A stretch of 64,000 nucleotides of DNA, taken from NCBI RefSeq assembly GCF_007970185.1, contig NZ_CP042431.1:1922001-1986000 (forward strand), given 5' to 3'. Shown one piece after another: positions 5,635-51,095 of this stretch. Every line of letters starts with the position of its first letter. Position 1 is the stretch's first letter. Made by a program: the position numbers and the translations under genes. The stretch is from Pseudobacter ginsenosidimutans. Its GTDB lineage: Bacteria; Bacteroidota; Bacteroidia; Chitinophagales; Chitinophagaceae. Under the pieces are notes generated by a model. The model had not been told where the DNA came from, did no database searches, and saw only the letters and a program-made list of their open reading frames with translations.

Positions 5635-7038
5635 ATGAGAAAGAAGAACATGGTATTGCAAAGCATTGCAGTTGAAGATTATGCGGCTGAAGGCAAGGCG
5701 TTATCGAGATTGGATGGAAAAGTGATCTTTATCGAAGGAGCCGTGCCCGGTGATGTGGTGGACGTGCGCCTGAGCAAAAATAAAAAAGAATGGGCCGAAG
5801 GTAAAGCGGTCCATTTTCAATCCCTTTCCAAAGACCGTGTGGATCCGTTCTGCCAGCACTTCGGCATATGCGGCGGCTGCAAATGGCAGATGCTTCCCTA
5901 TGAGAAACAACTTTTGTACAAACAACAGGAAGTTACCCAGAATCTGAAAAGGATCGGTAAAGTGGCCCTCCCCGAAATGGAGCCCATCCTGGGTTGTGAG
6001 CAAACCTCCCGCTATCGCAATAAACTCGAGTTCACTTTCAGCAATAAAAGATACCTCACTACTGAAGAGATCAGCGCAGGCGCTGAACTGAAGCAGGAAG
6101 ACGCACTCGGCTTCCATGTGCCACGCCTGTTCGACAAGATCATCGATATCGAAACCTGTCACCTGATGGAAGAACCGGCCAACGCCATCAAGAATACCAT
6201 CCGCGCATTTGCAAAAGAACAGGGCTATACTTTTTACGATATCCGCGAACACAAGGGATGGCTTCGCACCCTCATCATCCGCGTTGTTACAACAGGAGAA
6301 GTGATGGTGAATGTCTGTTTTGGTTATGAAGATGCCAAAGAGCGGAAGAAATTGTTCGACCACCTGCTGGAGCAGGTGCCTTCCATCACTACCCTGCTCT
6401 ATACCATCAACCCCAAGAAGAACGACACCATCTACGACCTGGAGCCCAAAGCGTATACTGGCAACGGTTATATCATGGAAAAACTGGAAGATCTTCGTTT
6501 CAAGATAGGCCCCAAGAGTTTTTTCCAGACCAATACCCGGCAGGGAGAAAGATTGTACCAGGTTACCCGCGAGTTTGCCGAACTAACCGGGAAGGAAACT
6601 GTTTATGACCTGTATTGCGGAACCGGCAGCATTGGATTGTTTGTGAGCAGGCTGGCCAAAAAGATCATTGGGGTGGAAGTGGTCAAAGAAGCGATTGATG
6701 ATGCCCGTGAGAATGCCGCGCTCAACGATATCGGCCATGCCGAATTCTTTGCAGGAGATGTGATAGATATTTGCGACGATGCCTTTTTCTCCCATCATGG
6801 CAAGCCCGATGTGATCATCACCGATCCGCCACGGGCAGGCATGCACGAAAAACTGGTGCAGAAGATTCTGGACATGGAAGCGCCGCTGGTTGTGTATGTG
6901 AGCTGCAATCCCGCCACCCAGGCCCGCGATCTCAGCAGGCTCGGCGAGAAATACGAAGTTACCAGGGTAAGGCCCGTGGATATGTTCCCCCAAACTCACC
7001 ATATCGAGAACGTGGTGCAATTGAAATTGAAAAAATAA
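5635..7038 (+). CDS. rlmD: 23S rRNA (uracil-C5)-methyltransferase, RlmD/TrmA family
   Basis: This enzyme transfers a methyl group from SAM to C5 of a uridine in rRNA (U1939 if a true RlmD). Domains in order: an N-terminal TRAM domain (about 8-65), a 4Fe-4S site (Cys73, Cys79, Cys82 and Cys175), and a C-terminal Rossmann methyltransferase with QTN, DLYCGTGSIGL, DPPRAG and the nucleophile Cys424 in YVSCNP. All key residues are present. The 467-residue length is normal. The start at 5635 keeps a basic N-terminus (MRKKN); the promoter position would also allow 5650. RlmCD-type double specificity cannot be excluded from sequence. Confidence 0.9.
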   Translation: MRKKNMVLQSIAVEDYAAEGKALSRLDGKVIFIEGAVPGDVVDVRLSKNKKEWAEGKAVHFQSLSKDRVDPFCQHFGICGGCKWQMLPYEKQLLYKQQEVTQNLKRIGKVALPEMEPILGCEQTSRYRNKLEFTFSNKRYLTTEEISAGAELKQEDALGFHVPRLFDKIIDIETCHLMEEPANAIKNTIRAFAKEQGYTFYDIREHKGWLRTLIIRVVTTGEVMVNVCFGYEDAKERKKLFDHLLEQVPSITTLLYTINPKKNDTIYDLEPKAYTGNGYIMEKLEDLRFKIGPKSFFQTNTRQGERLYQVTREFAELTGKETVYDLYCGTGSIGLFVSRLAKKIIGVEVVKEAIDDARENAALNDIGHAEFFAGDVIDICDDAFFSHHGKPDVIITDPPRAGMHEKLVQKILDMEAPLVVYVSCNPATQARDLSRLGEKYEVTRVRPVDMFPQTHHIENVVQLKLKK

Positions 7039-7124
7039 CCTTCATACAACAAGAAATCGATCCGGTTGTTAGCCCATTCAGGTAAACATGCCGATATTAG
7101 AGGAATCAAAAAGGAAACAGGAAT

Positions 7125-7826
7125 ATGGGAAATGTGAGATTTGGCGGCGGATTTCAACCATTACCGCCCGTTATCAAGAATCTGATCATTGTGAATGCAC
7201 TGATGTGGCTGGCCGAGCTTACATTCAAAGATGCGTTGATAACGCCGCTGGCGCTTCACTACCAGGGCTCACCTGATTTCGGTGTATGGCAGTTGGTTTC
7301 CTATATGTTCCTGCATGATGCATCCAATTTCTTCCATCTCTTTTTCAATATGCTTATCTTATGGATGTTTGGTACACAGCTGGAAAACCGCTGGGGCGCC
7401 AAACGATTCCTGATCTTCTACCTGATCTGCGGCATAGGTGCAGGGCTGATACAGCTTATCGCCAACCAGGTGGAACTGAATATCGTGATGAGCAAATACA
7501 ATAGCGGAGAGATGGCTGTCAATGTTGCGCAATACAGGGCCGCCATGATCCAGCTTATCCAGGTGGTAGGTGCATCAGGCGCCATCATGGGTGTAATGGC
7601 AGGTTTCACCTATCTCAACCCCAACCAGGAACTTTTTATTTTCCCCTTACCTTTTCCTATCAAAATGAAATATGCCATGGTAGCCTATGTGCTGATTGAT
7701 CTGTTTGGAGGCATTAATCCCCGCTTCGGTGGTGGGGTAGCGCATTTCGCTCACCTTGGCGGTGCACTTTTCGGTTTTATTCTGGTGATCATTATGAACC
7801 GGAATAACCGAAGAACATTTTATTAA
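7125..7826 (+). CDS. Rhomboid family intramembrane serine protease (first of two)
   Basis: A polytopic membrane protease that cleaves substrates within the lipid bilayer. The catalytic dyad is visible as Ser151 in GASGAIMG and His210 in AHFAHLGGALFGF; His71 and Asn75 in HLFFNML fit the oxyanion region. Six hydrophobic segments are seen between residues 15 and 225. An unusual hydrophilic insert (about 113-140) precedes the catalytic Ser helix. A second rhomboid gene follows 103 bp downstream and an EEP-family gene after that, all on the same strand. Substrates are unknown. Confidence 0.92.
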   Translation: MGNVRFGGGFQPLPPVIKNLIIVNALMWLAELTFKDALITPLALHYQGSPDFGVWQLVSYMFLHDASNFFHLFFNMLILWMFGTQLENRWGAKRFLIFYLICGIGAGLIQLIANQVELNIVMSKYNSGEMAVNVAQYRAAMIQLIQVVGASGAIMGVMAGFTYLNPNQELFIFPLPFPIKMKYAMVAYVLIDLFGGINPRFGGGVAHFAHLGGALFGFILVIIMNRNNRRTFY

Positions 7827-7929
7827 AAGCGGAAACATTACCAATTATCAAACGTTTAATACAATTAGCCGGCAGGTTCATGGTATTGATCTGACCGGCG
7901 TTTTGTAAATTCACGCAAAAATTAACTCC

Positions 7930-8856
7930 GTGCTGCGGGAAAACCGGTATAAGAAAAAGACGATTCTGGGTCAGGATGGGAATGCCCTGCTGATGTTGCT
8001 GGCGGTGATCGCCATTCTCTTCTGTATTTTCAAATTCCTCTTCCTGGTTTACAAGATGTCTGACTGGCAGGAGATTGAGTACTACACCAATATCCTGGAC
8101 TGGTTCAGAATGCCAGGCAACTTCGGGTCTTTCCTTAGCAGGCCATGGACATTGGTCACTTACATGTTTGTTCATGATGGTGTGTGGGATCTCATCGCAA
8201 ATGTTCTCTGGCTCTGGGCTTTTGGTTTCATTTTCCAGGACCTTACCGGAAATAACAAACTCGTGCCACTGTTCATTTACGGCGGACTTCTGGGAGGAGT
8301 GATCTTCCTCACTGTTGCCAATCTGATGCCGGCAATGGCTCCTGCACTTCCCGGGCTCAGACTCGAAGGCGCTTCCGCAGGACTGATGGCCATCGCCATC
8401 GCAACCACAATACTGGCGCCGAATTACAGGATCTTCCCCATGATCAATGGCGGCATACCGCTTTGGATACTCACACTCGTTTATATCGCACTTACATTTA
8501 GCCGCGGCATCAATATTCAGAATACACCCGTACTGTTCGCTCACCTCGGCGCAGCAGGAATGGGATGGCTCTTCGTTCACCAGCTTAAACGCGGGCACGA
8601 CTGGAGTCTTTGGTTAAATGAAGCCTACGACTGGGCAACCAACCTCTTCAATCCCGATAGAAAAAACTGGAAAAAAACAGCCAAAGACGATCTCTACTAC
8701 AATTCAAAAGGAACCCAACCTTACAAAAAGATCCCCAATATCACCCAAAAAAGGATCGACGAGATCCTCGATAAGATCAATCAGCAAGGTTACAGGTACC
8801 TCACTGAAGAAGAAAAAGAAATACTGAAAAGGGCTGCGGAAGATGAAGAGTTGTAA
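7930..8856 (+). CDS. Rhomboid family intramembrane serine protease (second of two)
   Basis: Paralogous to the preceding gene, with catalytic Ser149 in EGASAGLMA and His205 in FAHLGAAGMGW. Transmembrane segments lie between residues 18 and 218. The C-terminal tail of about 90 residues is soluble and charged, ending TEEEKEILKRAAEDEEL, a helix-turn motif common at the end of Bacteroidota rhomboids. The start is a GTG at 7930; no ATG lies in frame before the first membrane segment (the next is MLLAVIAI, which would cut into it). It ends 9 bp before the EEP gene, suggesting an operon. Confidence 0.88.
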   Translation: MLRENRYKKKTILGQDGNALLMLLAVIAILFCIFKFLFLVYKMSDWQEIEYYTNILDWFRMPGNFGSFLSRPWTLVTYMFVHDGVWDLIANVLWLWAFGFIFQDLTGNNKLVPLFIYGGLLGGVIFLTVANLMPAMAPALPGLRLEGASAGLMAIAIATTILAPNYRIFPMINGGIPLWILTLVYIALTFSRGINIQNTPVLFAHLGAAGMGWLFVHQLKRGHDWSLWLNEAYDWATNLFNPDRKNWKKTAKDDLYYNSKGTQPYKKIPNITQKRIDEILDKINQQGYRYLTEEEKEILKRAAEDEEL

Positions 8857-39619: not shown

Positions 39620-39650
39620 TGTGTACAATTTACACATTTTGTATTGTGTA
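39620..39650. promoter_or_regulatory. Triple TGTGTA/TACACA repeat upstream of susC-like gene
   Basis: Three 6-bp elements: TGTGTA (39620-39625), its inverse TACACA (39631-39636) and TGTGTA again (39645-39650). They form two overlapping inverted pairs with 5- and 8-bp spacers, 43-73 bp before the SusC-like start. A transcription-factor site for the locus is plausible; the binder is unknown. Confidence 0.45.
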
Positions 39651-39692
39651 GATTGTACGCAATTTCAACAAAAACTAAAAGAACGATTGTTT

Positions 39693-42600
39693 ATGCCACA
39701 TCGACTGCTTGTGGGGATCCTATCTCTGCTTCTGGCGCTACCCTCTGCTACATGGGCGCAAAACAAAACAATTACCGGTAAGGTTACGAATGAAAAAGAC
39801 GGTGCCCCGCTTCCGGGCATTTCGGTTACACCCAAGGGTGGGTCCGGCGGAACCTCCACCTCTTCCGAGGGAACATTTTCCATTACAATTCCGGCTAATA
39901 CCAACATCCTGGTGTTCAGTGGTGTGGGGTATGAGAGTGCGGATGTGAACATTGCTGATCAGCTGGTGGTGAATGTAAGTCTGAAACCATCTTCTGTGAA
40001 CATGAATGAAGTGGTGGTGATCGGCTATGGTACGCAACGCCGCAGGGAAGTAACAGGCGCTATTGCCAAGGTCACATCGGATAAGATAACGGCATTGCCT
40101 ACACCGAGTTTTGAAGCTTCCCTGCAGGGAAGGGCTCCGGGTGTACAGGTGGTGCAGGGAAGCGGCCTGGCAGGTTCGGGATCGGTTGTGCGTATCCGTG
40201 GTATCGGATCCATAAGTGCGGGTGGTGATCCATTGTATGTGATCGATGGAGTGCCCATCATTGCCGATCCCTTTCAGCGCGGCAACAGCGGTGGGCAGAA
40301 TCAGAACCCTCTTGCCACCATCAACCCCAATGATATCGAGTCCATAGAGATCCTCAAAGATGCAGGCGCAGCAGGCATCTACGGCAGTCGTGGCGCCAAC
40401 GGTGTGGTGCTCATTACTACCAAAAAAGGAAAGGGCGGTAAACCTCTCTTCAATTATAATAACCGCTTAGGTGCCACTACCTGGGCGCTGCGTCCCAAAT
40501 TCCTCAATGGTCCTGAATGGCTGCAGATGCGCCAGGAAGCCTGGGAGAATGATGGCAATATGGGCAAAGCCCCGTTACCTGGTGGTCTAACCTGGGAGCA
40601 GGCCGAAAAGAATAATACTGACTGGTGGAAAGAATTGACCACTACAGGTTTCATCAATCAGCACAATGCCAGTATGACTGCCGGCAACAAATGGCTGAAA
40701 AGCTATGTAGGCGCCAGTTATGCAAAGGATGAAAGCTATATCAAAGGCAATGCCTATGAGCGTTTGGGAGCGCGCGCCAATCTCGATTTCCAGGCGCTGA
40801 AGAATCTTAAGTTCAACCTCAATCTTTCCTGGAACAATGGTAACAACCATCGCGTTCCTGCTGCCTGGGCAGGAGGTTTAGGAGATGCTATGTCTGCTGC
40901 ATTACCGATCTATCCAATCTACAACGATGATAAAACGTATTACCGGCTTGGTGCAAATCCGGTCTTGCGCCGTGATCAAACCAAATGGCGTAACACAGAG
41001 AACAAGTACTGGGGTAGTGCAGGAGCAGAATGGCAACCCATCAGGGATCTTACTATCAAAGCTGTTGGAAGTATCGATTACCTCACTTCCTTCGACGACC
41101 AGTTTGAGTCTGCCATTTATTTGAATAATGACAGACCGGGTATTGCTAAGCGTTATGTGTTCCATAATACGAACATGAGCGGTACAATTACTGCAAGCTA
41201 CAACTGGAATCCGCTTGATGACCATCGCTTCAGTTTCCTGGCAGGTTCAGAGATCCAGGAGTTCACAAAGGAAAGCTTTAAGGATGATATATACTTTTAT
41301 ACAGACAAACCCTTCTGGGAAAACAAATCGCTCTACAAACATGTAAGGGACTCCATGGTCTCCAACGGTATCAAGAAAATGGAAGAAAGCGATGCATTCA
41401 CTTTTGTATCCTTTTTCGGCAGAGTGAATTACACTTTCAAAGACCGTTACGTATTGCAACTCTTAGGGCGTATTGATGGCTCTTCCAAATTCGGTCCCAA
41501 TAACAGGTATGGTTTCTTCCCCGCAGCATCTGCCGCCTGGATCATCTCCGAAGAGGATTTCGTAAAAGATATCGACTGGATCCGTTTCCTGAAAGTCCGC
41601 GCCAGCTATGGTATTGTGGGTAATTCGGATATCCCTTCAGGAGCATACTACTCCAAGATCTCCAGGGGAGGTCAACCATTTGCGTTTAATCCCACCTTGT
41701 TCCCTGATAATATCGGCAATCCCGATCTTAAATGGGAAACCATGCGCAACTTCGATCTGGCGCTGGAATTTTCTCTTAAGAACAATCGCATCAGTGGAGA
41801 GATCGCTTATTATAATAAGACTACTGTTGATCAACTGGTGGAAGGTGCCATCCAACCCAATTCCGGATTCTCAAATGCCTGGAGAAATCTGGATGGTGGC
41901 AAGATAGTCAACCGCGGTATCGAATTAAGTCTTACAGCCAAAGTGATCGAAACAAAAGATCTCAGCTGGACTGTTGGTGGAAACATCAGCAGAAACTACA
42001 ATGAAGTGATCAGCCTCGGTAAGCTGGGTGCTGATGCATTGAGCGGAGGTTCCAACGATACGCGTATCATTCCCGGTTACCCGGTGGGAACCAATTACCT
42101 TGTACGTTTTGCTGGCGTTGATCCGAATGATGGCCTTCCCATCTGGTTAGATCTCAACGGTAAAAAAACCAAGACATTCTCTCTTGATTATCGTATGCCT
42201 GTTGGTAGTGTGATCCCCGATTATGTTGGAGGCATCAACAGTAATCTTTCCTACAAAGGTTTTGATCTTGGCGTGCTCTTCACTTATGCGATCGGTGGCA
42301 ATCTTTATGATGGTTCTGCAAAACGCCAGGATGGTGTGATAACAGATTGGGTGATCCGTGAAGATCTGAAAGACCGCTGGCGCAAACCAGGAGATATTGC
42401 AAAGTATCCAAGGTTGACAATGAATACATCAACCTATAACGGTCTTTCAAGTGAATGGCAATACAACTCAACCTTATTCTTGTACGATGCAGATTTCCTG
42501 CGTCTTCGTGAACTAACGCTTAGCTATACACTGCCATCAGATCTTTTCAAATCTGGAAGGATCCGCGGTGTGAAAGTGTTTGCAACAGGTATGAACCTGC

Positions 42601-42746
42601 TCACCTTTACAAAATATCCGGGAGGAGATCCTGAAATTGCCAGGGATTTTGATAAAGCGCAGGACAGGAATATGAGTCCGAATGTAACTTATCTCACACC
42701 GCCACAACAAAAGGCATTCACATTCGGCGTAAACGTGAACTTCTAA
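39693..42746 (+). CDS. SusC/RagA-type TonB-dependent outer-membrane transporter
   Basis: Imports oligosaccharides across the outer membrane with SusD as lid. From the start MPHRLLVGIL at 39693: signal peptide to about 23 (ATWAQ), a CarboxypepD-regulatory-like domain (ITGKVTNEKDGAPLPGISV), the TonB-box/plug region MNEVVVIGYGTQRRREVTGAIA, a plug with ILKDAGAAGIYGSRGANGVVLITTKKG, and a 22-strand barrel to the C-terminus. The upstream frame to 39621 would run through the repeat region and lacks a signal peptide. There is no STN domain, so anti-sigma signalling is unlikely. First gene of the Sus-like locus. Confidence 0.96.
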   Translation: MPHRLLVGILSLLLALPSATWAQNKTITGKVTNEKDGAPLPGISVTPKGGSGGTSTSSEGTFSITIPANTNILVFSGVGYESADVNIADQLVVNVSLKPSSVNMNEVVVIGYGTQRRREVTGAIAKVTSDKITALPTPSFEASLQGRAPGVQVVQGSGLAGSGSVVRIRGIGSISAGGDPLYVIDGVPIIADPFQRGNSGGQNQNPLATINPNDIESIEILKDAGAAGIYGSRGANGVVLITTKKGKGGKPLFNYNNRLGATTWALRPKFLNGPEWLQMRQEAWENDGNMGKAPLPGGLTWEQAEKNNTDWWKELTTTGFINQHNASMTAGNKWLKSYVGASYAKDESYIKGNAYERLGARANLDFQALKNLKFNLNLSWNNGNNHRVPAAWAGGLGDAMSAALPIYPIYNDDKTYYRLGANPVLRRDQTKWRNTENKYWGSAGAEWQPIRDLTIKAVGSIDYLTSFDDQFESAIYLNNDRPGIAKRYVFHNTNMSGTITASYNWNPLDDHRFSFLAGSEIQEFTKESFKDDIYFYTDKPFWENKSLYKHVRDSMVSNGIKKMEESDAFTFVSFFGRVNYTFKDRYVLQLLGRIDGSSKFGPNNRYGFFPAASAAWIISEEDFVKDIDWIRFLKVRASYGIVGNSDIPSGAYYSKISRGGQPFAFNPTLFPDNIGNPDLKWETMRNFDLALEFSLKNNRISGEIAYYNKTTVDQLVEGAIQPNSGFSNAWRNLDGGKIVNRGIELSLTAKVIETKDLSWTVGGNISRNYNEVISLGKLGADALSGGSNDTRIIPGYPVGTNYLVRFAGVDPNDGLPIWLDLNGKKTKTFSLDYRMPVGSVIPDYVGGINSNLSYKGFDLGVLFTYAIGGNLYDGSAKRQDGVITDWVIREDLKDRWRKPGDIAKYPRLTMNTSTYNGLSSEWQYNSTLFLYDADFLRLRELTLSYTLPSDLFKSGRIRGVKVFATGMNLLTFTKYPGGDPEIARDFDKAQDRNMSPNVTYLTPPQQKAFTFGVNVNF

Positions 42747-42766
42747 TCCATAAAGTATTGTCAGTT

Positions 42767-44155
42767 ATGAACCATATCAAAAAATATATCGTAATACTGA
42801 TCGCCATCGCTGGTTTGGGCGTTACGGGTTGCAAGAAATTCCTGGAAAGGCCACCTGCCGGTAAACTGGAAGAAGGCACAACCTTAACCCAGAGCGATAG
42901 TCTGATGTCTTTCCTGAACGGATGCTACACAACCATTGGCGGAGATGTGCTCTACGGAGGAAGGATGTGGGTGATCAAAGAATTGCTCGCTGATCATTTG
43001 TATGGCACGCTGCTTACAGAGGATAATGGCGAGATCTGGCGGCGGAAGACGGCCATCTTTGGTGCTTACAAAAATGATTTTTACAAGGAGTGCTATCAGA
43101 TAATGTACAGGGCCAATAAAGTATTGGAATACCTGCAATATGCAGATGAAAATAAAAAAGCGAGAGCTGAAGGAGAAGCCAAATTCCTGCGTGGACTGAT
43201 GTTATTCGAAGTAGTGCGTTTGTGGGCGCAGCCTTACGGAAGTACAGCAGACAATGCTCAGGCTGGTGTTCCGGTTCGTCTTGTTGCAGATATCAGCCTG
43301 CTCGGAAGAAGTTCAGTGAAAGATGTCTACTCGCAGATACTGGCTGACCTCAATGATGCAGCCAATCTCCTTCCTCCGCAAAATGGCGAATACCCTTCAC
43401 AATACACGGCCATGGCCATTCTTGCGAAAGTGTATTTCCAGATGAACGATTTTGCCAAAGCATATGAATTCTCCAACAAGGTGATGGAGCAGGCTGAAAC
43501 CGGAACTGCATTCAGCTTTGATGAAGATGTGATGGACCGATGGACCCTGGGTGGAAGCCATGAAGGCATTTTTTCCATCAAGAGCAGGCCCGGAAATATA
43601 GAGCCTGGCGGAGAGATCAGGGGCAGGTTCCGCAGCGACAATAATGCTAACCCTGTAATGAAGTACACGCCGCAAACAAGATCGCTTTTCAGCAGGCCGG
43701 GTGATGTAAGAGCTGCCTGGCTCACCACCGCTACAAGCCCCGACTTTTTCCTGCTCACCAAATACAATCTCACCAGTTTCGATCTGCAGATCGTTTCCGT
43801 TACGGAGATCAAACTGATCCGTGCAGAATCCGCCGCCGAATTAGGAACAAGTGATGAACTGGATGTGGCAAGAAAGGACCTGGATGATATTCTTGACCGT
43901 GCAGGACTTTCGCAGGATCTGACCAGCGCTACAGCCGCCCTCCTTATCAGTATTGCACGCAGAGAGCGTGAACTGGAACTGATCGGCGAAGGAAACCGCC
44001 TCGATGAGATCAAACGAATCGGTGTAAGGAACAATCAGAATATCGACCGGCGAGGTTCTCCCTACAATTGCAACGGTTTCATCCTTCAGTTCCCGGATAT
44101 TGAAAAAGCGGGGAATTCAAGTTTCATCAACAATCCTGAAGGAGGATGTTTCTAA
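42767..44155 (+). CDS. SusD/RagB-type surface glycan-binding lipoprotein
   Basis: The start MNHIKKYIVIL at 42767 is an ATG; the open frame from 42758 begins with TTG. Lipobox GVTGC places Cys22 at the mature N-terminus, followed by KKFLERPP, the usual SusD opening. The helical TPR-type body contains YRANKVLEYLQYA, EAKFLRGLMLFEVVRLWAQPYG and the C-terminal RRERELELIGEGNRLDEIKR, a SusD signature. At 462 residues it is somewhat short for the family. It binds glycan at the surface and caps the SusC channel. Confidence 0.94.
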   Translation: MNHIKKYIVILIAIAGLGVTGCKKFLERPPAGKLEEGTTLTQSDSLMSFLNGCYTTIGGDVLYGGRMWVIKELLADHLYGTLLTEDNGEIWRRKTAIFGAYKNDFYKECYQIMYRANKVLEYLQYADENKKARAEGEAKFLRGLMLFEVVRLWAQPYGSTADNAQAGVPVRLVADISLLGRSSVKDVYSQILADLNDAANLLPPQNGEYPSQYTAMAILAKVYFQMNDFAKAYEFSNKVMEQAETGTAFSFDEDVMDRWTLGGSHEGIFSIKSRPGNIEPGGEIRGRFRSDNNANPVMKYTPQTRSLFSRPGDVRAAWLTTATSPDFFLLTKYNLTSFDLQIVSVTEIKLIRAESAAELGTSDELDVARKDLDDILDRAGLSQDLTSATAALLISIARRERELELIGEGNRLDEIKRIGVRNNQNIDRRGSPYNCNGFILQFPDIEKAGNSSFINNPEGGCF

Positions 44156-44178
44156 TCAACGATGTAAAAATGCTAAAT

Positions 44179-44670
44179 ATGAAAACAAAATTCATCATAT
44201 TATTCGCTCTTATTGCAACCATCGTTGGTTGCAAACCAGAGTCGCTTCCTGATATCGGCGAACCATTGAATAAGGTTCAGCTCATTCAGGGTAACTGGCA
44301 ATTGGATAAAGTAGTGCAGTCTGATCTCAATGCAGTGAAATACAATTTTCCTTACAAAGAACTGGATGTAACGTCTGTTGCTCCGTTCACGCAGTTTAAG
44401 CTGAATCTGAATCTGAATGGAGATCAGCCAGGGGCTTTCACTACCACACCCGGCTCATCACCTGTGATCATTCCGCTTGCGGATGGAAAATGGGAATTGG
44501 ATGATGCCAATATCCCAAAGCAATTCAACCTCATCAAGGGAACCGATACAGTGAAAATGATGATGGGGTCTTACAATACTTTGAATGCCGGAAAGCTGCA
44601 CCTGCGCCTGGTGAAAGGTGATGGTTCAAAACAATTGCTGCAGTACGATTATTATTTCAAAAAGATCTAA
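44179..44670 (+). CDS. DUF5004-like lipoprotein of the Sus-like locus
   Basis: A 163-residue lipoprotein (MKTKFIILFALIATIVGC, Cys18). The block KVQLIQGNWQLDKVVQ near the mature N-terminus is like lipocalin-type DUF5004 domains found in Bacteroidota glycan loci. ATG 44170 is an alternative start. It lies 23 bp after SusD and 10 bp before the next gene, clearly within the operon. The role is unknown; small glycan-binding or assembly factor is inference. Confidence 0.7.
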   Translation: MKTKFIILFALIATIVGCKPESLPDIGEPLNKVQLIQGNWQLDKVVQSDLNAVKYNFPYKELDVTSVAPFTQFKLNLNLNGDQPGAFTTTPGSSPVIIPLADGKWELDDANIPKQFNLIKGTDTVKMMMGSYNTLNAGKLHLRLVKGDGSKQLLQYDYYFKKI

Positions 44671-44680
44671 ACGAATTGCA

Positions 44681-45472
44681 ATGAGAAAAATATTCATTCT
44701 AACAGTAAGCTTGCTTTGCGCAAACTGGTTGCAGGCGCAATTCAATACAGTGCAATTTCAACCGAAGACTTACACTGCCGAAGATCAGATTACATTTACG
44801 ATAGATGTGAGTACTGTAGCGTCGTTGGCCGGAAAAACTGATCTGTACATCTGGTTATGGGCAAATGATAACGCCCCGGGATATACGAAAGTGGACGGTG
44901 TTACCAATGGTGGCGTGTGGGGCTCTTCCAAACCCGAAGCCAAAATGACCAACAAGGGCAACAATATATTTGAATTCAAATTCCTGCCAACTTCCATGTT
45001 CGGTTTTGAACCGGGAAAACTCCTGCACTGGCAGTTCCTGGTTAAGAACCAGGATGGCACTGCACAATCAGGAAATTCTCCCAACTATGTTTTCGAGCCC
45101 ATCGTTTTCATACCTGTCCCGTTCCGCGTTTTTCCCAACAAGCTCAGCCCTTCAGATGTAGCTACAGTTTATTTTCATCAGGATCTGGCAACTTCGGTGG
45201 CAGAGCAACGCATGACACCTAAAACGGTTGTAGTGTCTTTGTACGATGAAGGCGGCACACAGATCGGAACTGCAAAAACATGGAACCTGAAGGCCGAAGG
45301 CAACCAGGTTTGGTCATATTCTTTCATTCCGAATATTGCCTGGACCATCCCTGCCGGAAAAACCGCATCCAAATTCACTTTCAGATTTGATGGAACAGGA
45401 AAGGATGTGAATGGGAATAATGTAAATATAACCGGAACAACTACTGAAAAAAATATTGATGCTTTACAATAA
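44681..45472 (+). CDS. Secreted protein of unknown function in the Sus-like locus
   Basis: A 263-residue protein with a signal peptide (MRKIFILTVSLLCANWLQAQ) and no lipobox. Two beta-rich halves are apparent: 22-140 with aromatic-rich strands (DLYIWLWANDNAPGYTKVDG, LLHWQFLVKNQDG) and about 145-263. The first half resembles in layout the N-terminal domain of the amylase at 47399 (DIYIHIGL..., then a Trp-rich loop, GNN.Y/F), so a shared carbohydrate-binding-type fold is possible. The start at 44681 is preferred over 44618, which overlaps the previous gene. I do not recognise a family. Confidence 0.7.
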   Translation: MRKIFILTVSLLCANWLQAQFNTVQFQPKTYTAEDQITFTIDVSTVASLAGKTDLYIWLWANDNAPGYTKVDGVTNGGVWGSSKPEAKMTNKGNNIFEFKFLPTSMFGFEPGKLLHWQFLVKNQDGTAQSGNSPNYVFEPIVFIPVPFRVFPNKLSPSDVATVYFHQDLATSVAEQRMTPKTVVVSLYDEGGTQIGTAKTWNLKAEGNQVWSYSFIPNIAWTIPAGKTASKFTFRFDGTGKDVNGNNVNITGTTTEKNIDALQ

Positions 45473-45499: not shown

Positions 45500-47287
45500 A
45501 TGAGATCAATACAAATTGCCTGCCGTTTGATCGTTTTCAGCTTGCTGCTGGCTGCTTGCCAGAAAGTAGATTATGACAATACCGTAACAGGGGAAGGGAT
45601 TGAAACGGGAACCTTTCGTATTCAGTCGCCCACCACGGCCTCTACTATCGCACTGAATGCAGCAACTCCTTCAGCTCCGCTGATAATCAGGTGGACAGCC
45701 GCCAGGCCCGGTGTTGACAAACCGATCACTTACAAATGGATTGCCGTAAAGAAAGGAGAGGATATCAGCAAATACACTTATGAACTTCCTGCAGACAATA
45801 ACGGTACTGCCACCACGCTTACCATCACACAGGAAAAACTGGATCTGTATCTTTTTTCAAAAGGTGTTCCCAACAAAGGTTCCGTAGAGCTTATCTGGTC
45901 CATTCAGGCTTCTAACGGTGAAACACAGGTGCTTTCACAGGACCAGTTCCAGCTTACACTGACCAGGTTCACGGATGGAGCAACTCCTTTCACACTTTAT
46001 GGACCTGAGCCTATCATCACTACGGCTACTGTAGATCCCACTTCCACTACGGACTTCTATCAGTTCAAATGGCAAAAGTCTGTACCTGCTACTGGCGGTC
46101 CGGCAGTGAAATACCGTGTGGTATTCGCTTTGGAAGATGGTGATTTTTCCGACCCGCTTTTCAGCGTCGCTTCTGATAACAATGGATCTGATTCCGCGCT
46201 CAAGATGACCTACAAGCAACTCAGCGATTCCCTCGACGACAATGAACAGGACGATCTCTCCAAAGAGAACCGCCTGAAATGGGCCGTACAGGCCATCTCC
46301 GGAGATTGGGTGCAGTGGTCCAACGTAAATAATACTATGAATATCCTGCGCCAGGTCCGCTTTTATGTTGTAGGAAAGATAGATGGATGGTCAGAATGGA
46401 AAATCGACGACCCCATGCAGATCATTCCCGACAAAGCCGCCGGACGTTACGCAAAAGTGTTCTACGCTTATCTGAAATTGAAAGCCGGTAACGAATTCAA
46501 ATTCTTCAAAACAAAAGGAGATTGGAACAGTGGATACGGACCCATCAGCGGATCCAACGGAGAATATGAAACAGGCTTCAACCAGGGATCAGGAAACTTC
46601 AGTGTTGCTGCCGATGGCGTATATCGTGTTACCATCGATCTTTCAAAGAACAAAGTATATATCCAGAACAATCAGCCAGGAGTAATTGGTGAAGTTCAAC
46701 AACCAACATGGGACGTGAATAATATCCTGAGAGGATACCCGGTTGCTCATAACAAATTCATGTTCCTGGTGAACTCCGATGGCACCAAAAAATTCAAGTT
46801 CAATGATGGCAATAACTGGAATGATGCAGAACCAAATCAAACCAGGATCTTCGGAATGGATGGAGAGAAACCGGGAATGCTGGTGAGCCCGGGAGGGGAT
46901 ATCACTGCAGCCGGATCGCCAGTATCCAGGCTGGTTTGGGATGGCAGCGATCCGCAATCGCTCAAATACACTACGGAAGCTGCTCATATGTATCTCATCG
47001 GAGATGCAACTGCAGGTGGTTGGGATAACGCAAACGCCAATCTTCCGGAACTTACCTACCAGGGCAATGGCATCTGGAAAGGAACAAATATTCCGCTCAC
47101 AGGTACCAAACAGTTTAAATTCCTGCTGAAAAAAGGAACCTGGGATTTCAACTATGGTAGTACTGCTGGTGAACCCGCTCCGCTCACCGGTGATATCAAA
47201 GAAGGTGGAGCCAATATCGGTGTGGCCACCACCGGCAATTACACCGTTGAGATAGACGAATACAAACGGACTTATAAAGTATACTAA
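45500..47287 (+). CDS. SusE/SusF-type starch-binding lipoprotein
   Basis: A surface lipoprotein (lipobox LLLAAC, Cys20) of 595 residues. The N-terminal SusE-type Ig domain (RIQSPTTASTIALNAATPSAPLIIRWTAA, about 34-62) is followed by a second Ig-like domain. Three repeated modules of SusE/F starch-binding type come next, with aromatic residues in FYVVGKIDGWSEWKI, KFMFLVNSDGTKKFKFNDGNNW and MYLIGDATAGGWDNA, each ending in KFKF or FKFL strands. Binds alpha-glucan outside the cell to feed the SusCD pair. A strong terminator follows. Confidence 0.9.
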   Translation: MRSIQIACRLIVFSLLLAACQKVDYDNTVTGEGIETGTFRIQSPTTASTIALNAATPSAPLIIRWTAARPGVDKPITYKWIAVKKGEDISKYTYELPADNNGTATTLTITQEKLDLYLFSKGVPNKGSVELIWSIQASNGETQVLSQDQFQLTLTRFTDGATPFTLYGPEPIITTATVDPTSTTDFYQFKWQKSVPATGGPAVKYRVVFALEDGDFSDPLFSVASDNNGSDSALKMTYKQLSDSLDDNEQDDLSKENRLKWAVQAISGDWVQWSNVNNTMNILRQVRFYVVGKIDGWSEWKIDDPMQIIPDKAAGRYAKVFYAYLKLKAGNEFKFFKTKGDWNSGYGPISGSNGEYETGFNQGSGNFSVAADGVYRVTIDLSKNKVYIQNNQPGVIGEVQQPTWDVNNILRGYPVAHNKFMFLVNSDGTKKFKFNDGNNWNDAEPNQTRIFGMDGEKPGMLVSPGGDITAAGSPVSRLVWDGSDPQSLKYTTEAAHMYLIGDATAGGWDNANANLPELTYQGNGIWKGTNIPLTGTKQFKFLLKKGTWDFNYGSTAGEPAPLTGDIKEGGANIGVATTGNYTVEIDEYKRTYKVY

Positions 47288-47398: not shown

Positions 47399-50299
47399 AT
47401 GATCAGGAAAAAATTGTTGTTGTTTATCTTTCTGCTGCCTGTATTGCCTGCATTGGCGCAATTGATCTCTGTTGCTCCTGCATTTCCGAAAGAAACAGGA
47501 CAAATAGAAATCACACTTGATTGCACACAGGGCAATAAGGGCCTGATGGATTATGCCAACCCGGATGATATTTACATTCATATCGGCCTCATCACCAGCG
47601 CCAGCACCAATAACGGCGACTGGAAACATTCAAAATTCGACTGGGCCACAACCCCACCCGAAGGGAAACTGACCTCACTCGGCAATAACAGGTACCGCTA
47701 TACGATCAATAACCTGCGCACCTGGATGGGCGTTCCCGCAGGCGAAACCATCTCCCATATCGTTTTCCTGTTCCGCAACGGAACTGGAAGCATGAAGCAA
47801 TGCAATGCCAATACCTCTGTCAACGGAGGCGATATGTACCTGAAGGTCTATGACAACAATCAATATGCTTCCTTCATTCAGCCTTCATACGAGCCTTACT
47901 TTACACCTTCGCTGGCTCCCATTCAAAAGCAGACAGGCGATAATCTGCCTGTGAAATTTGCCGTGAACCAGACCAGCGCACTGGAGTTGCTCTTCAACGG
48001 AAACAGTATCGCAACAGTTGCCTCGGGCATGGAGATCACTGCCAGCCCTGCTATCACTGCTTCCGGCAACCAGGAGTTGGTAGGGAAATATGTTGAAGGC
48101 GGCGTTACAAAAACACAAACCATCAATTTCTTTGTATCACCTCCTGTTACCGAACAACCTTTACCTGCAGGTGTTCGCGATGGCGTCAACTACGATCCCG
48201 CTGATCCTGCATCCGTTACGCTGGTGCTTTTCGCCCCCAACAAAACAAAAGCCACGGTACTCGGAGATTTCAATAACTGGACGGAGAACGCTGCCGCGCA
48301 GATGTACAAAACGCCTGATGGACAAAGGTTCTGGAAGAAGATCACAGGCCTTGCATCCGGCACGGAATACGCGTATCAATTCGAAATAGATAATACGCTT
48401 CGCATTGCCGATCCTTACACGGAAAAAGTACTTGACCCCAATAACGATCAATACATCTCTGCTACCACCTATCCCAATCTCAAACCTTATCCAACGGGCA
48501 AAACGAATGGGATCGTGAGTGTGCTGCAAACCAATGCCCCTGCATACAACTGGCAAAACAATAATTTCACCCGACCGGATAAGCGAAATCTCATCGTATA
48601 TGAATTGCTGCTGCGCGATTTCGTGGCCGCGCACGACTGGACCACATTGAAGGACACTATCAGCTATCTCAAACGCTTAGGAATAAACGCTATTGAATTA
48701 TTGCCCTTCAATGAATTTGAAGGTAATCTCAGCTGGGGTTACAATCCATCTTTCTATTTCGCCCCCGACAAATATTATGGAACGAAGAATGCGTTGAAAG
48801 CATTTATTGATGAGTGTCACAAACAAGGCATTGCCGTGATCATGGACATGGTGCTGAACCACTCATTCGGCCAGAGCCCAATGGTGCAGCTCTACTGGGA
48901 TGCCGCTAATAGCAGTCCATCTGCCAATAGCCCCTGGTTCAACCCATCCGCGAAACATCCTTACAATGTTGGCTACGATATGAACCACGAATCTTCCGCC
49001 ACACATTATTTTGTGAGCCGCGTTACAGAGTTCTGGTTGAAAGAATACAAGCTGGATGGTTTTCGCTTCGATCTGAGTAAAGGATTTACACAGAAGAATT
49101 CCTGCACAACAGGCGGCTGCAGCTCACAGCAGGAAGTAGACAACTGGAGTAAATACGATGCTTCGCGCGTGGCTATCTGGAAAGGATATTACGATACCAT
49201 CATGAAGCATAACGCTGGAGCCTACGTGATCCTGGAACATCTTTCAGAAAACAGCGAAGAGAAGGAACTGGCCAGTTACGGAATGTTGTTTTGGGGAAAT
49301 CTGAATTACAACTTCAACGAAGCTACCATGGGCTGGATGCAGAATTCCGATTTCAGCTGGGGCCTCAGCACAGCGCGCGGCTGGGACAAGCAGCATCTGG
49401 TGATGTACATGGAAAGTCACGATGAAGAAAGACTGATGTACAAGAATATCAACTTTGGAAGAACCAGTGGCACTTACAATATCAAGGATCCCAACACAGC
49501 TTTGAAGCGAAACGAGCTCGGTGCTGCATTTGGAATGTTGATGCCCGGACCGAAAATGATCTGGCAGTTCGGGGAACTGGGATATGATTTCAGTATCAAC
49601 CGTTGCGGCGATGGAACTGTGAAAGATGAATGCCGTACTGACTCCAAGCCCATCAGATGGGATTACCAGACAGTACCCGCCAGGAAAAACCTGTATGATG
49701 TGTATGCGAGACTACTTGGTCTGCGGCAACATTTCCTGTATAAGGATATTTTTGCGGGAGGCTTGCTGGATAAGGATTTCAGCGCAGGCTTCAAATGGAT
49801 GAAAATCACCACAGACACGAGTTCCCTGGTAGTGGTGGGGAATTTTGAAGTGAGCCAGCAAACCACCGGTGTTTCCTTTCCGCGCACGGGTACCTGGTAT
49901 GAATATTTTGGCGGACAGCCATTAATTGTTTCCGGAAACGTACAAAGTATTACCTTGCAGCCCGGCGAGTACCGGGTTTACATCAACCGGAATATTGCCT
50001 CTAATCCTACCCCAGTTCCGGAGATACCTACTATTAATCAAAATTTCCGTTTGGTTGTATATCCCAATCCTGTCAGCAGGTCAGGCCAGATCGAGTTCGA
50101 ATTACCGGCCGGATCTTCAGTGTCATTGAGTCTGACGAATATGTATGGGCAAAGAATCGCGGACCTGTATAGCGGTGTAAGAGCTAAAGGTGTACACCGT
50201 ATTCCATTAGGTACTACAGGATTTGAATGGGGAAAGCTTCCAAAAGGAATGTATTTTTTACAGCTTTTAATGGGTGATAAAAATTGGTTCGTCCTTTGA
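47399..50299 (+). CDS. GH13 alpha-amylase family protein with T9SS sorting domain
   Basis: A secreted glucanase of 966 residues. Signal peptide to about 20 (LPALA), an N-terminal beta domain, a CBM48-like module (LVLFAPNKTKATVLGDFNNWTE, about 275-296), then a GH13 (beta/alpha)8 barrel. The catalytic set is Asp558 (FRFDLSK), Glu613 (ILEHLS) and Asp675 (SHDEE), with region I as DMVLNH. The last 90 residues (LVVYPNPVSRSG ... LPKGMYFLQLL) form a T9SS type A sorting domain. Extracellular hydrolysis of starch or pullulan-like glucan is inferred. Confidence 0.94.
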   Translation: MIRKKLLLFIFLLPVLPALAQLISVAPAFPKETGQIEITLDCTQGNKGLMDYANPDDIYIHIGLITSASTNNGDWKHSKFDWATTPPEGKLTSLGNNRYRYTINNLRTWMGVPAGETISHIVFLFRNGTGSMKQCNANTSVNGGDMYLKVYDNNQYASFIQPSYEPYFTPSLAPIQKQTGDNLPVKFAVNQTSALELLFNGNSIATVASGMEITASPAITASGNQELVGKYVEGGVTKTQTINFFVSPPVTEQPLPAGVRDGVNYDPADPASVTLVLFAPNKTKATVLGDFNNWTENAAAQMYKTPDGQRFWKKITGLASGTEYAYQFEIDNTLRIADPYTEKVLDPNNDQYISATTYPNLKPYPTGKTNGIVSVLQTNAPAYNWQNNNFTRPDKRNLIVYELLLRDFVAAHDWTTLKDTISYLKRLGINAIELLPFNEFEGNLSWGYNPSFYFAPDKYYGTKNALKAFIDECHKQGIAVIMDMVLNHSFGQSPMVQLYWDAANSSPSANSPWFNPSAKHPYNVGYDMNHESSATHYFVSRVTEFWLKEYKLDGFRFDLSKGFTQKNSCTTGGCSSQQEVDNWSKYDASRVAIWKGYYDTIMKHNAGAYVILEHLSENSEEKELASYGMLFWGNLNYNFNEATMGWMQNSDFSWGLSTARGWDKQHLVMYMESHDEERLMYKNINFGRTSGTYNIKDPNTALKRNELGAAFGMLMPGPKMIWQFGELGYDFSINRCGDGTVKDECRTDSKPIRWDYQTVPARKNLYDVYARLLGLRQHFLYKDIFAGGLLDKDFSAGFKWMKITTDTSSLVVVGNFEVSQQTTGVSFPRTGTWYEYFGGQPLIVSGNVQSITLQPGEYRVYINRNIASNPTPVPEIPTINQNFRLVVYPNPVSRSGQIEFELPAGSSVSLSLTNMYGQRIADLYSGVRAKGVHRIPLGTTGFEWGKLPKGMYFLQLLMGDKNWFVL

Positions 50300-50369: not shown

Positions 50370-51095
50370 ATGGGAACCGCTTTGCAGAAAACGATTCAGC
50401 AATTAAGATCCGAAAACAGGGAATATTTCCAGATAGCCATTTCCGTGGACTGTGTGATCTTTGGATTCGACAACAACGAATTGAAAGTGTTGTTGATCAA
50501 ATCTGACCTCGAAGAATTCCAGGACCAGTGGTCATTACTGGGAGACCTGGTGAAGCCGGATGAAAATCTCGACAATGCATCTTACCGCGTACTGAAAGAG
50601 CGCACCGGTCTGGATGATGTATATCTGGAACAGGTGTATACTTTCGGAGAAGTGAACCGCCACCCTGCGGGAAGGGTAATCACCACCGCTTATTATTCTC
50701 TCATCAATATCAAGGACCACCAGTTGAAGCTGGCCCATAACGAACTGCACTGGCACCCCATCCGGGAGATCTCTACACTGGCCTTCGACCACCAGCAGAT
50801 CCTTGACACCTGTCTGAAGCAGTTACAGAGCAAGATCAATGAACACCCCATCGTGTTCAACCTCCTGCCGGAAAAATTTTCGCTTCGCGAATTGCAATCC
50901 CTGTATGAAGCCATTCTCGGTGTAAAAATGGACAGAAGGAATTTCCGCAAGAAATTCTTCCTGATGGGATGGCTCGAGGATGTAAACGAACTGGAACAGG
51001 ATGTGCCGCACAGACCAGGCAAGCTCTATCGCTTCGATCCTGACTGGGCAAGCAAACCCAAAAGCGACAACAAACTCACAGAAGTAGAGCAGTAA
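50370..51095 (+). CDS. NrtR-like regulator: degenerate Nudix domain plus winged helix
   Basis: A 241-residue protein with a Nudix fold (about 20-150) and a C-terminal winged helix (FSLRELQSLYEAILGVKMDRRNFRKKF, about 170-200). The Nudix box is degraded: the segment around residues 55-80 ends RVLKERTG, missing the central REUXEE glutamates, so catalysis is unlikely and ligand sensing is more plausible. Proteins of this type regulate sugar catabolism or NAD genes in Bacteroidota. Its place just after the amylase suggests it controls the Sus-like locus; that is inference. Confidence 0.85.
   Translation: MGTALQKTIQQLRSENREYFQIAISVDCVIFGFDNNELKVLLIKSDLEEFQDQWSLLGDLVKPDENLDNASYRVLKERTGLDDVYLEQVYTFGEVNRHPAGRVITTAYYSLINIKDHQLKLAHNELHWHPIREISTLAFDHQQILDTCLKQLQSKINEHPIVFNLLPEKFSLRELQSLYEAILGVKMDRRNFRKKFFLMGWLEDVNELEQDVPHRPGKLYRFDPDWASKPKSDNKLTEVEQ

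Follow-up and report, generated by a model that had tools for sequence, protein, structure and literature searches.

The window analysed here, a stretch of 64,000 nucleotides from Pseudobacter ginsenosidimutans, holds a Sus-like gene series that is read on the forward strand from start to end. The gene of a SusC-like TonB-dependent transporter (39621..42746; TIGR04056, 782.2 bits) is followed by those of a SusD-like lipoprotein (42758..44155; SusD-like_3 and SusD_RagB), a DUF5004 lipoprotein (44146..44670), the protein of interest, here called protein X (44681..45472), a SusE/F-like lipoprotein (45500..47287; Pfam SusE and SusF_SusE), a GH13 amylase (47399..50299) and an NrtR-like Nudix/winged-helix regulator (50370..51095; Pfam/NCBIfam). 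The position between a DUF5004-like and a SusE/F gene, which an earlier note on this DNA had given for X, is borne out by both family assignments, the DUF5004 match scoring 25.3 bits vs a Pfam cut-off of 21.6. The amylase combines a CBM98-like N-terminal domain with CBM48, the GH13 domain and a probable T9SS tail (Por_Secre_tail at 20.9 bits, below the cut-off of 27), and it has solved relatives in 8xx9 and BoGH13A-Sus (8dge). Ten nucleotides separate the DUF5004 stop (44670) from the start of X, and 27 nucleotides its end from the next gene (45500). The SusD and DUF5004 genes share 10 overlapping bases, which suggests translational coupling.

Protein X, encoded by an open reading frame with its ATG start at 44681, comprises 263 amino acids and is predicted to be exported. 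Direct reading of its N-terminus, MRKIFILTVSLLCANWLQAQ up to the cleavage site and F immediately after it, together with the N-termini of 44 relatives, indicates a type I-like signal peptide (residues 1-20; 44681..44740) that ends in LQAQ, has no Cys near the cleavage site and is devoid of a lipobox, just as the earlier note had described the export of the protein. The mature part divides into two tandem CBM98-like domains, domain 1 (residues 21-141; 44741..45103), delimited by structure and profile comparison, and domain 2 (residues 142-263; 45104..45469), delimited by profiles and a low-confidence model. Compared with its closest relative, which is 94% identical, X shows purifying selection (dN 0.035, dS 0.394). 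Scanned by itself against Pfam and NCBIfam, X gave nothing above cut-off; matches to DUF6882 (0.017) and FxLYD (0.018) were taken as chance, and neither the SusE nor the SusF_SusE Pfam domain was matched at E 1. CBM26 matches in two of 34 members of the X family, at best 2.8e-4, lend weak support at most.

The similarity between the first half of X and the amylase's N-terminal domain, likewise noted earlier, is weak in pairwise alignment (BLASTP, E 1e-4 with 29% identity across 112 columns) and becomes strong when profiles freed of signal peptides are compared in hhalign (3.8e-14). The profile of X domain 1 was made from 34 of the 45 X proteins (the window's own and 44 relatives; alignment A4) and that of the amylase domain from 31 of 33 amylase N-termini (alignment A3; L106 and L109, for which a wrong start had been chosen, were omitted). 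Five controls with reversed profiles gave 0.1 or worse, with 0.14-0.15 for the comparison of domain 1 and amylase, and of the seven segments of DUF5004, SusE/F and SusD used as controls, six gave 0.034 or worse against domain 1. By these profile comparisons, domain 1 and the amylase N-terminal domain are homologous. The last SusE/F segment matched domain 1 at 6.9e-4, and across the X domains and four SusE/F segments no comparison was better than this value. A weak profile similarity (6.5e-5) was seen also between the N-terminal domain of the amylase (47399-50299) and that last segment of the SusE/F protein (45500-47287), and the two may be remotely related.

Searching the PDB with the amylase N-terminal profile retrieved BoGH13A-Sus from Bacteroides ovatus (7.8e-10), all other matches being at 0.8 or above, and any sequence link from X to CBM98 is indirect, via the amylase N-terminal domains, in steps of 7.8e-10 and 3.8e-14. 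Neither X alone nor X profiles found a CBM98 chain in the PDB by sequence: the three matches of X alone were all 0.78 or worse, a BoGH3B stretch at 0.047 as the sole match of the X profile was rejected, and the wider X profile had no matches. The AlphaFold model of X, made with 8 sequences in the alignment, is of mediocre quality (mean pLDDT 69.0). Foldseek with this model listed BoGH13A-Sus at all ranks from 1 to 10, with TM-scores of ~0.35 over the whole query, and VIA-align superposed residues 21-141 of the model onto residues 47-161 of BoGH13A-Sus with Z 13.1 and an rmsd of 2.1 for 110 residues, the next unrelated row having a Z of 7.3. The portion of BoGH13A-Sus that aligns with CBM48 and the catalytic domain begins at chain position 145, and because the matched residues 47-161 come before CBM48 in the chain, they presumably represent CBM98. 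Domain 1 as modelled would therefore have the CBM98 fold, and the comparison with starch-binding modules proposed in the earlier note favours its suspicion of a glucan-binding protein. CBM98 is reported to bind maltooligosaccharides (PMC11633381).

Among the 34 aligned X sequences, domain 1 retains W58 and K122 throughout (34/34 each), W80 in 33 and Y56, which forms a Y56-x-W58 motif, in 32. The aligned positions of the amylase domains (n = 31) are Y59 (29), H61 (31), W82 (29) and R126 (31). Common to both are hence a Tyr, one (later) Trp and one basic residue; the invariant H61 of the amylases is replaced by Trp in X, and their invariant W75 has no clear counterpart there.

The earlier note had recognised a protein of two domains and missed that its second half is related to the first. 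When compared by wide profiles in hhalign, domain 2 matches the amylase domain at 2.2e-11 and domain 1 at 1.1e-9; profiles from the family only give weaker values (0.015 and 7.6e-4, respectively). Modelled alone (residues 140-263), domain 2 reached a mean pLDDT of 63.3, and its best structural matches (Z 7.5) were to unrelated domains of the Ig/FnIII-like type in receptors and GH2 enzymes, with no CBM98 among the matches listed. With a poor model that finds generic beta sandwiches only, the kinship of domain 2 depends entirely on the sequence profiles, by which it is a diverged second copy of the domain 1 module. No Trp of domain 2 aligns with W58 or W80.

The genomic distribution of X was surveyed by single-sequence searches, which can miss diverged copies, in 294 genomes of the window's family. 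At 1e-3, X was matched in 24 of them; G210 and G260, in which the matches lay only inside long frames (872 and 973 aa), were subtracted to leave 22 genomes with X. DUF5004, searched at 1e-8, occurs in the identical set of 22. With E 1e-150 as the limit, the amylase was detected in 167 genomes, of which just 21 also encode X; genome G102 has X and no amylase at 1e-150. The shared set of 22 genomes for X and DUF5004, set against 167 for the amylase, implies that X belongs with the SusC-SusD-DUF5004 module and not with the amylase as such. The earlier note had envisaged a soluble protein or a partner of the amylase, and whereas the soluble, exported protein is retained, an amylase-specific partnership is unlikely. 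The idea that X is devoted to the locus amylase, as its partner or regulator, might seem to follow from their common domain and their shared locus in 32 of 44 cases, but it is difficult to reconcile with these genome counts and with an amylase that already has its own copy of the domain, and we give it very little credence. In the locus of G102 (L037), the amylase is gone from an otherwise intact arrangement, with 589 bases between the SusE/F and NrtR-like genes.

A profile search of 395 genomes from the class and 395 from the phylum gave matches in 80 and 87, respectively, mostly in the first ~127 profile positions and within long frames, which are taken as amylases, those fetched having been checked. 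One long protein that matches the X profile, an 841-aa open reading frame at 4842 of L057 (G210:C47), is distinct from the amylase of that genome. Two further long proteins (L132:784-5865 and 6004-8211; 1693 and 736 aa) contain three clear CBM98-like modules each.

Besides the window, we read 44 loci with X, namely 26 from the window's family and Pedobacter/Nubsella and 18 from elsewhere in the class, the latter picked from among 32 matches in stand-alone frames 174 to 367 aa long, the other 14 not being included. L035 (contig of L028) and L029 (contig of L036) were not recounted, and L057 and L056 were dropped for having no X of this type. DUF5004 is the constant neighbour, immediately upstream of X in 44/44 loci, with an overlap of up to 98 or a gap of up to 87 bases. 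In 42 loci, DUF5004 is itself preceded by SusD, and also by SusC except in L050, which starts inside SusD; in the two loci of one genus (L108, L117), SusC/SusD are downstream of X. These two harbour an X variant of 360-367 aa (L108:8895-9977, L117:9581-10684) in the order DUF5004-X-SusC-SusD, and the 360-aa variant in L108 neighbours GH97 and a GH99/WbsX-like gene. A full-type amylase is nearby in 32/44 loci, with one partial at a contig end. L030, a Pedobacter locus lacking the full-type amylase, has genes for GH31, a cyclomaltodextrinase-type GH13 and GH65, and in seven amylase-less loci (L033, L037, L050, L105, L107, L117, L121) no evidence of alpha-glucan enzymes was found. By its conserved placement, X is a component of the SusC-SusD-DUF5004 uptake module.

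The strict association with DUF5004 would suit also a protein that acts in assembly or docking, its shared domain binding protein (SusD, DUF5004 or the amylase) instead of sugar. Such a function would be compatible with a domain 2 that lacks the two Trp residues and with the repetition of the module in long proteins of unknown role; it is, however, at odds with the sugar-binding nature of the solved relative of domain 1 and with the finding that domain 1 keeps its aromatic residues and its Lys in 32 to 34 of the 34 sequences compared, and we consider it unlikely for X as a whole.

Regarding the cellular location of X, reading by eye found no lipobox at the mature end of X and its 44 relatives. 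A lipobox pattern was flagged in one of the 44, placed inside the hydrophobic core, and Cys follows immediately after Gln in L040, L041, L042 and L052, an arrangement that is not a canonical lipobox. NCBIfam/Pfam matches of 34 X members at E 0.1 included no T9SS sorting family, and YPNP near the C-terminus was found in 0/44 relatives. In the same loci, YPNP tails are present in 20 of 31 amylases, and lipobox patterns in 35/44 DUF5004, 33/39 SusD and 22/26 SusE/F proteins. Acidic residues after the lipid Cys, considered as a surface-export signal of DUF5004, number 1.31 on average in DUF5004, 1.15 in SusD and 0.86 in SusE/F. DUF5004 may be exposed at the surface. Earlier work is stated to have placed PUL glycoside hydrolases that carry type I signals mainly in the periplasm (PMC10316084). 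A type I-like signal with neither a lipobox nor a recognised T9SS tail makes the periplasm the simplest location, and judged from these sequence features X is more probably periplasmic than not.

SusE/F directly follows X in 26/26 loci of the window's family and Pedobacter/Nubsella. In the 18 wider loci, a SusE/F profile that may miss diverged proteins detected none beside X (0/18); near the amylase of L110 and L119 lies a protein that has domains of the X25/CBM48 type and matches SusF weakly. This arrangement is what one might expect if X were a starch-binding protein of the cell surface or outside the cell, working beside SusD, SusE/F and the amylase, and having arrived by an unrecognised export route or being held by DUF5004: X would stand next to SusE/F in the former loci and fill its place in the latter, and the CBM98 of B. 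ovatus is part of a surface-anchored amylase (PMC11633381). Against it count the want of a lipobox and of a T9SS family in X, when the amylase, DUF5004, SusD and SusE/F proteins of the same loci mostly do show YPNP tails or lipoboxes. A surface location of X is thus possible and, in our judgement, doubtful.

In the reading we prefer, X binds alpha-glucans as a subunit of the uptake module and probably sits on its periplasmic side; we put the probability of this reading at roughly 45%. A tandem of CBM98-related domains that accompanies an operon for sugar uptake in many Bacteroidota is probably a sugar-binding part not described before, and a glucan-binding role of X appears likely. From the observed homology, tandem architecture, synteny, co-occurrence and lack of a lipobox or recognised T9SS tail, we infer ligand, location and role as follows. 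The uptake module would consist of SusC, SusD, the DUF5004 lipoprotein and X, the last being a maltooligosaccharide-binding protein made up solely of two CBM98-like beta-sandwich domains in tandem. Domain 1, with its conserved aromatic and basic patch, would be the likely binding domain, and domain 2 a probable spacer or docking domain. Most likely located in the periplasm, X would retain maltooligosaccharides arriving through SusC near the outer membrane before their cleavage by periplasmic glucosidases. More generally, and quite tentatively, Sus-like alpha-glucan systems of many Bacteroidota might include a soluble protein in the periplasm that is dedicated to glycan binding, shares ancestry with the starch-binding module of the amylase and receives oligosaccharides from the channel of SusC. 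To our knowledge, the Sus model has no periplasmic binding step after SusC, and X falls outside the classical SusA-G set, as the earlier note had also suggested. The findings suggest that Bacteroidota use a conserved and as yet unnamed component in alpha-glucan uptake: even in loci without a detected SusE/F neighbour, DUF5004 and X come as a pair after SusC/SusD. Were X periplasmic, it would add a binding step after SusC, and the handling of large oligosaccharides after import would become testable by one knockout.

Literature searches on DUF4961, DUF5004/SusD, BoGH13ASus, CBM98, GH13_47 and broader topics gave no account of protein X among the matches listed; none was found on DUF4961, and DUF5004 appears with SusD in a table line of PMC10434189. 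Among the closest known systems, the CBM98 of BoGH13A-Sus (PDB 8dge, 8dl1, 8dl2) resembles domain 1 in its modelled fold and, through the amylase domains, in the Tyr, later Trp and basic residue. It differs in that X, a stand-alone protein of 263 aa and not a module of a GH13 amylase, is free of an enzyme, has two copies, lacks a lipid anchor and carries Trp for His. The surface glycan-binding lipoproteins SusE/SusF are similar as accessory genes downstream of SusC/SusD that encode tandem beta-sandwich domains, but X has neither their Pfam domains nor a lipobox, and a separate SusE/F gene adjoins it in the window and in 26 of the 44 relatives' loci.

A further related entry is the Pfam family DUF4961 (PF16328), whose last ~100 positions match relatives of X. 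Profile positions ~180-281 match domain 1 in L044 and L118, and domain 2 scores 32.9 bits in L043, 31.9 in L106, 31.4 in L111 and 38.7 in L114 vs a cut-off of 27.1; scores are above cut-off in 4 of 10 relatives scanned singly, and with E 0.1 as the limit, matches are seen in 27 of the 34 members aligned. The window's X, by contrast, has no match to DUF4961 at E 1, and the full protein of that family exceeds X in length and resembles a lipoprotein. The window's genome itself contains a full-length DUF4961 gene (L131:10047-11498; G000:C1, ~2,496 kb; 375.7 bits), probably encoding a lipoprotein, in another SusC/SusD-rich locus. It too comes directly after a DUF5004-like gene (8.6e-7), and DUF5004 and DUF4961-type genes may generally be paired in this order.
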